From contig JAHJDP010000107.1 of the NCBI GenBank assembly GCA_018831195.1, positions 1 to 64,000 on the forward strand: a DNA stretch of 64,000 bases, written 5' to 3'. A program made the position numbers and the translations under genes. Below the pieces are notes generated by a model that was not told where the DNA came from, did not search any database, and saw only the letters and a program-made list of their open reading frames with translations. Of this stretch, positions 45,054 through 47,552 are shown piece by piece (position 1 is the stretch's first letter; each line of letters opens with the position of its first letter). This stretch comes from Candidatus Eisenbacteria bacterium. Lineage in GTDB: Bacteria > Eisenbacteria > RBG-16-71-46 > CAIMUX01 > JAHJDP01.

Positions 45054-45538
45054 CAGGGATTCCTCACACCCGGGGCCGTAAAGAGGGCGCGATTGACATA
45101 TTCGGTCTCTTCAGCGGTCGGCGTATTTCGCCCATGGGGAACCTTGATTTCAAGCCAATGCGAAGGCATGAGAGCGGCCCAAGCTGTTGAAGTCGTCTCC
45201 GGTACGGGTGTCACGACCGAAGCAATCTGATCAGGAACCGATCTCTCCAGATTCAGATATTTCAATGCCGGAAGAATCGAATCCAGGGCTAGATCCGTTT
45301 TCAAATCTCTGACGGCCATAAGCGCTTCTGTTCGAAGCGAATCCCTTTGAAACTCCAACTTTTCAACCCGCTGACATGATGAGCAGAGCTGTGTTTCAAT
45401 TTGTACAAGTAATGCAAAGTAGATACACGCCAATGGAACCAACCACCAGGCAAAATGGAACCGGTTTCCGGCTCTTTTCCCACATCTGGCCATGGGACGG
45501 CCGTTCCCAGGAAAAAGAATGGTTTCTTTCGGCTTCAT
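45053..45538 (-). CDS. ftsL: FtsL-like bitopic division protein
   Basis: A 161-residue protein with a basic N-terminal stretch, one membrane helix (about 31-46, WLVPLACIYFALLVQI), and a short coiled-coil-like region with ETQLCSSCQRVEKLEFQRDSLRTEAL. A less ordered C-terminal part of about 60 residues follows, which is longer than in most FtsL. The family diverges strongly, so assignment depends on topology and on its location between rsmH and ftsI, where ftsL always lies. The start overlaps the rsmH stop by four bases. Confidence 0.75.
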   Translation of the reverse strand: MKPKETILFPGNGRPMARCGKRAGNRFHFAWWLVPLACIYFALLVQIETQLCSSCQRVEKLEFQRDSLRTEALMAVRDLKTDLALDSILPALKYLNLERSVPDQIASVVTPVPETTSTAWAALMPSHWLEIKVPHGRNTPTAEETEYVNRALFTAPGVRNP

Positions 45539-46446
45539 TCTGTGACCTTTCTATAAACCCGTAGGCGTGCGCTCCGGGATTTTGGGTTTCGCACAACCTC
45601 TTCTTGTGTCGGTGCCTGAGCTTTCCGAAGCACCAATTCCCAAACCGGCTTCCCGTCCGAATCCAACTCCTCCCGCAGGACCTGCCGCACGCACCGGCTC
45701 TCCAAAGAGTGATAACAAAGCACAACCAGACGTCCCCCCGGCGCCATATGCGGCGCGAGATTTTTCAGACAGCGCTCCAGATTTTCCAAATCCCCCTGAA
45801 GAGCCATCCGAATGGATTGAAATACCTTGCTGAGAAGCTTGGGGCTCGGGGACCGCCCGACGGCAACCCGTATACCTTCAACCAAATCTCCAACCTTCTG
45901 GATGGGCTGATCCTGCCTCCGTTCAATCAACACTTGCGCGATGCGGCGCGCCGATCGAACTTCGCCGAATGATCTAAAAACTTCAGTCATTTGATCCTTG
46001 GTCCATCGCCTTAACAAATCCGCCGCTGTTTCCTTCTGGCTCATATCAAAACGCATATCCAGAGGGGCGTCTGGGAAACGATAGGAAAGCCCTCTTGCGG
46101 GGTCTTCAAGCGCAAAGGACGAAAGGCCAAGATCCAATAAAACTCCAGCCGCTGAATATCCGCGATCGGCGAGCCGCCAGGGCAGCTCAGAAAAATTAGA
46201 ACGAATAAACTCTGTATAGGGTGAATACTTTTCCAGATGCTCCCTGGCTTTTGTTAAAGCAATGAGATCACAATCAAGGGCAAGGAGACGGCCGTGTGGA
46301 ATGATGCGGTTTAGTATGGCTTCAGAATGCCCCCCTGTTCCGACAGTGGCATCCACGTAGAGGCCGTGGTGCTCAGTGATCAGGGCCGATAGGACCTGGT
46401 CCACCATGACCGGTTCGTGGAGCACTTCCTCTCCCCCCCATGACAT
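45535..46446 (-). CDS. rsmH: 16S rRNA m4C1402 methyltransferase RsmH (MraW)
   Basis: RsmH methylates C1402 in the 16S rRNA decoding centre. Seen are HEPVMVDQVL, the SAM loop DATVGTGGHSEAIL, DLGLSSFALEDPARGLSYRFPDAPLDMRFD, a DLVEGIRVAVG insertion, FQSIRMALQGDLENLER and VVLCYHSLESRCVRQVLRE, the family landmarks. The ATG at 46446 gives 303 residues and a normal N-terminal length, but no ribosome site precedes it. A GTG at 46425 has a strong G-rich site (GGGGGGGAGAGG). Either start is possible. The leader is highly structured. Confidence 0.94.
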   Translation of the reverse strand: MSWGGEEVLHEPVMVDQVLSALITEHHGLYVDATVGTGGHSEAILNRIIPHGRLLALDCDLIALTKAREHLEKYSPYTEFIRSNFSELPWRLADRGYSAAGVLLDLGLSSFALEDPARGLSYRFPDAPLDMRFDMSQKETAADLLRRWTKDQMTEVFRSFGEVRSARRIAQVLIERRQDQPIQKVGDLVEGIRVAVGRSPSPKLLSKVFQSIRMALQGDLENLERCLKNLAPHMAPGGRLVVLCYHSLESRCVRQVLREELDSDGKPVWELVLRKAQAPTQEEVVRNPKSRSARLRVYRKVTE

Positions 46447-46461
46447 CCCGAAGGGGGCGAT

Positions 46462-46606
46462 GGGGTCCGATGGACCAAGCCTTTCCCGAGGTAGACCTGG
46501 AGGCAGGGACGCTAACTTCCCATTGGTCTCTTCCCGGTCCTATCGGACCCCACCACCCCCCACAGGGACGCAGCGGTTGAACACACATAGCAAGGCAACT
46601 TCAACC
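46462..46606 (-). ncRNA. Structured leader RNA before rsmH
   Basis: In transcript order: a 7-bp hairpin GGTTGAA/TTCAACC (46606-46575), then a long stem in which GGGGTCCGAT-A-GGACC (46551-46536) pairs with GGTCC-ATCGGACCCC (46476-46462), 15 pairs with one bulged A. It encloses about 59 bases with further pairing (AGACC/GGTCT and GGGA/TCCC). Directly downstream CCCCC (46457-46453) can pair with the G-run (46439-46433) that forms the ribosome site of the alternative rsmH start, so the stem and the site may compete. The structure is intergenic between the STAS gene and rsmH. Position recalls the actinobacterial mraW RNA motif, but identity cannot be verified here. Confidence 0.65.
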
Positions 46607-46614
46607 CCGGCCTC

Positions 46615-47049
46615 TTAATTTGGTGAGGGAAGGGGCATACTGTATCCCATTCCCAGTTGCACCATGGTCGGGCATGCTCGTAGCAGGGGTTCCTGCAGTG
46701 TGGGGGTTTGTGACGAGTTCCGGTCAGGTGCCGGCTTAGGATTGGTGATCAACTCATCCACTTCCTGAGCCACACCCAATCTCAGGAGATCCCAGAGGTA
46801 GTCCGAGACTCCCGTCATCTGCATCTCTCCTCCCCGGAGCCGAACCAGTCGGCATGTGGCCAGGAGAAAATGGCTGCCTCTGAAATCCAAATGCCGAACT
46901 TCGGAGAAATCCAGCAGGATCTTGGAAGGCGGATGTGTCCCCAATCGGCTGGTGAGAGTACTCAATTGCCGCAGATCATTCTGAGTCAGTGAGCCCATCA
47001 CTTGGACCCACCAGAGCGAACCGATCCTTGTCATGCCTAAGCTGGACAT
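46615..47049 (-). CDS. STAS-domain protein inserted between mraZ and rsmH
   Basis: A 144-residue protein with a STAS domain (about residues 10-100): VQVMGSLTQNDLRQL, ILLDFSEVRHLDFRGSHFLL and RLRGGEMQMTGVSDYLWDLLRLG. STAS proteins are anti-sigma antagonists or ligand modules switched by phosphorylation of a Ser in a D-S-S-G-like motif. The equivalent stretch reads HLDFRGSHF, lacking that Ser, so kinase control is unlikely. A Pro/Ser-rich tail follows. GAGGGAG lies about six bases before the ATG. It starts 11 bases after mraZ, separating it from rsmH, which is unusual for this conserved gene pair. Confidence 0.8.
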   Translation of the reverse strand: MSSLGMTRIGSLWWVQVMGSLTQNDLRQLSTLTSRLGTHPPSKILLDFSEVRHLDFRGSHFLLATCRLVRLRGGEMQMTGVSDYLWDLLRLGVAQEVDELITNPKPAPDRNSSQTPTLQEPLLRACPTMVQLGMGYSMPLPSPN

Positions 47050-47537: not shown

Positions 47538-47552
47538 CCCCTTATTACCCCA
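47538..47552 (-). promoter_or_regulatory. MraZ-box-like operator
   Basis: TGGGG-TAATA-AGGGG, two 5-base G-rich boxes with a 5-base spacer, matches the TGGGN-N5-TGGGN layout bound by E. coli MraZ. It lies between the mraZ promoter and its ribosome site. A third box in phase is not clear. Direct GGCAAAAT repeats lie just upstream (to about 47585). Confidence 0.55.

Follow-up and report, generated by a model that had tools for sequence, protein, structure and literature searches.

The spacer between a STAS-domain gene and rsmH in the division and cell-wall cluster of a Candidatus Eisenbacteria bacterium (contig JAHJDP010000107.1) holds a structured RNA element that is kept before rsmH in related genomes, with compensatory changes in its helices, and that is likely to be a genuine, previously undescribed control element acting on rsmH. 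The bacterium belongs to an order that is poorly known and uncultured. We favour, at a probability of roughly 0.55, a conserved RNA domain that lies between cistrons of the mraZ–STAS–rsmH–ftsL–ftsI transcript and acts in cis, with rsmH and the later genes as its targets. The first-pass annotation of the window (the whole 64,000-nucleotide stretch of DNA analysed, in whose numbering all positions are given) had proposed a cis-acting RNA controlling rsmH through a ribosome-site switch; the structured RNA is supported, and the switch is not.

What is understood about how the opening genes of the division and cell-wall cluster are tuned comes mostly from MraZ, in a handful of model bacteria. An RNA element between mraZ–STAS and rsmH would give the same operon a second control point, based on RNA; it would have arisen independently of the mraW motif of actinobacteria and would provide a compact candidate RNA that can be tested.

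Genomic context

Pfam assigns the genes of the locus, in order, to MraZ, a STAS-domain protein (46615–47049, minus strand, as are all features below; PF13466 and PF01740), RsmH (the MraW methylase; 45535–46425, PF01795, E = 5e-75) and a penicillin-binding protein bearing PASTA domains. A 161-amino-acid product without a Pfam match lies between the last two and occupies the position expected for FtsL. The STAS gene is just upstream of the element, and its stop at 46615 is the upstream limit of the spacer to rsmH. As annotated earlier, a run of seven Gs (46439–46433) precedes a GTG (46425–46423) that is probably the start of rsmH; a GTG-NNN-His start is also present in four relatives of family f4. 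The G-run and the probable Shine–Dalgarno region of rsmH together span 46427–46439. Many genomes of the class, and some outside it, likewise carry a STAS-domain gene in the mraZ–rsmH interval, which is an unusual extra gene for a division cluster.

The sole good promoter-like site (TTGACG-18-TATTAT, 47627–47598) precedes mraZ. Just before mraZ, TGGGG-TAATA-AGGGG (47538–47552) resembles the spaced TGGGN repeats bound by MraZ. A promoter scan found no promoter-like site between mraZ and rsmH (such scans say little here), and the element therefore looks intercistronic rather than like a 5′ leader.

Fold of the element in the window

The element (46453–46560) comprises a long stem, P1, and a branched core, and is supported by the MFE fold, shuffled sequences and the orthologous elements of relatives. 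The 5′ arm of P1 (46536–46560, with A 46541 bulged) forms 24 pairs with the 3′ arm (46453–46476), the outer end of which is CCCCC. An earlier description of this stem as 15 pairs with one bulge (46551–46536 with 46476–46462) was right about the bulge and too short, as nine further pairs (46560–46552 with 46461–46453) extend it. The separate 7-bp hairpin described upstream (46575–46606; 46606–46600 with 46581–46575) is also present in the fold, and no counterpart of it was recognized in relatives.

The fold in the window is real. Over 211 nt it has a z-score of −2.8, with 1 of 200 shuffles equally good, and over the 195-nt spacer −3.4, with 1 of 300 equally good; strong folding is common in GC-rich DNA, so that the shuffle result alone is weak evidence. 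The sense strand folds at −96 kcal/mol, versus −75 kcal/mol for the antisense strand. Within rsmH, GGTCCTATCGGCCC (46382–46395) is a near complement of GGTCCGATAGGACC in the P1 5′ arm, which may be chance; competition between the two was not seen in the ensemble.

Conservation in the order

We compared 11 genomes of the order, comprising the 5.24-Mb assembly of the window and ten others, none of which is from the family of the window. The region upstream of rsmH was readable in nine, the window included, all of them diverged, GC-rich draft assemblies. In each of the nine, a spacer of 130–195 bases that folds into a long stem precedes rsmH; two of the folds (L004 and L008) are no better than shuffles (z −0.7 and −0.2). 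Among class members outside the order with a recognized STAS gene, the gap to the RsmH histidine codon is about −5 to 61 bases. Sequence search recognized the STAS gene in L001, L003, L009, L012, L013 and L014, six of the nine loci from the order; the upstream frame in L004, L008 and L049 was not confirmed as STAS.

Core and stem occur together in seven of the nine: the window (family f1), G002 and G005 (f3), and G003, G006, G008 and G010 (f4). The RsmH proteins of these relatives are 37–44% identical to that of the window, and the element is always directly before rsmH, 17–30 nt ahead of the start codon. In the two f2 genomes (L003 and L014) the hairpin ahead of rsmH is very long (z −5.3 and −4.5) and lacks the conserved core, so the roles of core and stem may be distinct.

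The core inside P1 reads UCCCUGCC-N(5–10)-CCUCGG in all seven genomes, across three families. Its first block, TCCCTGCC (46502–46509), is identical in the seven and was followed by pattern searches; the second is CCTCGG (46486–46491; CCTCGGGAA in six of the seven, shortened to CCTCGGG). With this longer second block, the pattern CTCCCTGCC-N(4–10)-CCTCCTCGGG occurs in 6 of the 11 order genomes, directly before rsmH in five and apparently by chance in the sixth; a reversed control gave none. By our estimate, a relaxed core pattern is met about once in every 17 Mb of strand across the phylum, which puts the probability of its falling by chance in the 195-base spacer of the window at the order of 1 in 100,000. 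Searches of 47 genomes of the phylum and 385 further-ranging genomes returned, outside the order, only scattered, chance-like matches, none near an rsmH match, and viral contigs gave none. A contig search for relatives returned one distant, uninformative locus. No further copy was found in the window genome, and this single copy rules out a repeat or mobile element. We also considered a coding peptide (SLPRVLLG in some f4 genomes), which is rejected by a stop in L004, a one-base length change in the window and the loss of four bases in L008.

Covariation of the helices

The sequences of P1 are unrelated between families (window, GGGGTCCGAT.../ATCGGACCCC; f4, GGAAGCGGGG.../CCCCGCTTCC; f3, GGTCGG.../CCGACC; f2, GGTCCGAG.../CTCGGACC), and the best partner of a 5′ flank is mainly the 3′ flank from the same genome. 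Because the stems are not alignable by sequence, the consensus that RNAalifold derived from a MAFFT alignment of the seven was poor, and we therefore used a partner-permutation test, in which P1 is aligned between families by position only, with nine sequences in total. For six diverse sequences, the true pairing (trace −339.7 kcal/mol) ranked first of 720, the next reaching −325.7 kcal/mol. It again ranked first, of 24, in each of the two one-per-family sets, and none of 20,000 permutations of all nine sequences, a set that includes close relatives, reached the true assignment.

Inside the core, the covariance model alignment and its pair table define P2, in which AGACC (46525–46529) pairs with GGTCT (46497–46493). 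P2 is common to f4 and the window and absent from f3; between the window and f4 one pair exchanges A-U for G-C and another varies among C-G, A-U and U-A. In the window sequence P2 lies 1.5 kcal/mol above the MFE. The 5′ strand of P3 in the pair table is TGGGA (46518–46522; AGGCA or GGGCA in relatives), and its pairing is perfect in f4 and G005, nearly perfect in G002 and reduced to three of five pairs in the window. There the MFE fold instead pairs GGGA (46521–46518) with TCCC (46509–46506) in a hairpin that replaces P3. The same TCCC could form a candidate pseudoknot with GGGA at 46487–46484.

A covariance model, R1, built from the four f4 genomes with the window excluded, recovers the window element in the expected place, strand and register at 20.3 bits (E = 2.8e-4 for a search of 453 bases in three spacer loci). 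Genome-wide this score is not significant, another site in the window genome scoring 22.9 bits, so the support comes from orthologous position plus structure. In seven of the nine genomes the sense strand gives the better fold of the two, with G-U pairs favouring the RNA sense strand. The expectation that relatives would keep the spacer and show covarying pairs was borne out: the spacer is in all nine, and compensatory changes are evident in P1 and, on both sides, in P2, with P3 weaker.

Proposed role and alternatives

The constant position before rsmH (core in seven of nine, stem in all nine) and the compensatory helix changes are features of cis-regulatory RNAs, and the position suggests both that regulation takes place and that rsmH is its target. 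In the reading that we favour, P1 would, as a rigid stem, close and present a core maintained by selection, in which the small helices P2 and P3 and the two nearly invariant pyrimidine-rich blocks could be recognized by a factor, either a protein or a small molecule. This recognition, or the stem itself, would determine how far rsmH and the genes after it are translated, or how stable their message is, relative to mraZ–STAS; the stem could do so through RNase processing or by restricting how many ribosomes read on or re-initiate from STAS. Control of rsmH and downstream expression via a bound factor or processing seems to us the most likely arrangement.

The long stem might instead be a plain processing or stabilizing hairpin, for example an RNase III site, that splits the mraZ–STAS part of the transcript from the rsmH part and senses nothing. 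Its 24 pairs with one bulge suffice for RNase III, the stem is not followed by a terminator U-tract, and the f2 genomes retain a long stem without the core. We think this unlikely, as it leaves unexplained why two blocks that are unpaired or only weakly paired are nearly invariant in three families. A more specific proposal, which we hold only tentatively, is a new class of ligand-sensing RNA (a riboswitch) or an autogenous RsmH-binding site, with the pyrimidine-rich core perhaps locked by the UCCC–GGGA pseudoknot; it would make the division and cell-wall genes responsive either to a metabolite or to methylation of the ribosome.

A compact, single-copy and strongly folded domain could also be a separate small RNA gene, or a processing by-product, that acts in trans, and its pyrimidine-rich core, with CCUCC in six relatives, could bind Shine–Dalgarno-like sequences. 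The constant place directly before rsmH in seven genomes, the lack of an adjoining promoter-like site and the lack of other copies make this doubtful at best. A DNA-level element, such as a protein-binding site or an rsmH promoter whose inverted repeats merely resemble RNA stems, is very improbable. Inverted repeats fit DNA-binding proteins too, and core conservation by itself is strand-blind, but it is the pairing of the stem and not its sequence that is conserved, and the G-U bias noted above points to RNA.

The switch proposed at first, in which a leader would mask or free the ribosome site of rsmH, is hardly credible: CCCCC (46457–46453) and the seven-G run both exist, 14 bases apart, but CCCCC is buried in the outer 3′ arm of P1 and never free in the ensemble (unpaired probability 0.00), forcing the two to pair costs 10–11 kcal/mol, and the G-run is not conserved, the four f4 relatives having no comparable G-run just before the GTG start and no clear Shine–Dalgarno site.

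Comparison with known RNAs

At gathering score, Rfam 15 gave no match in the whole window, and permissive scans of the window and eight relatives gave only weak, biologically unrelated matches. We found no description of such an element in the open-access literature. The mraW motif (RF01746), to which the element had initially been likened in position, is listed by Weinberg et al. (2010; PMC2864571) as probably cis-regulatory in Actinomycetales. Its covariance model, with a gathering cut-off of 50 bits, works in a control set (four genomes match, one above the cut-off); in the window genome it finds nothing, and none of the 11 order genomes scores above the cut-off, the best score, 18.9 bits, lying elsewhere in the genome. 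Both are candidate cis-regulatory RNAs tied to mraW (rsmH) of the division and cell-wall cluster; the element here, however, is from other bacteria and is not matched by the model, so that the position is similar and common descent is unsupported.

Riboswitches and protein-binding leaders differ from the element in that it has a single gene context, is intercistronic, shows no terminator or conserved arm masking the ribosome site, and has no known ligand or protein. Like them, it holds a conserved, weakly paired core on a stem that varies and covaries, a short distance ahead of a start codon. We file it, on these comparisons, as an undescribed RNA family of a known kind, mraW-like in place and not itself an mraW motif.
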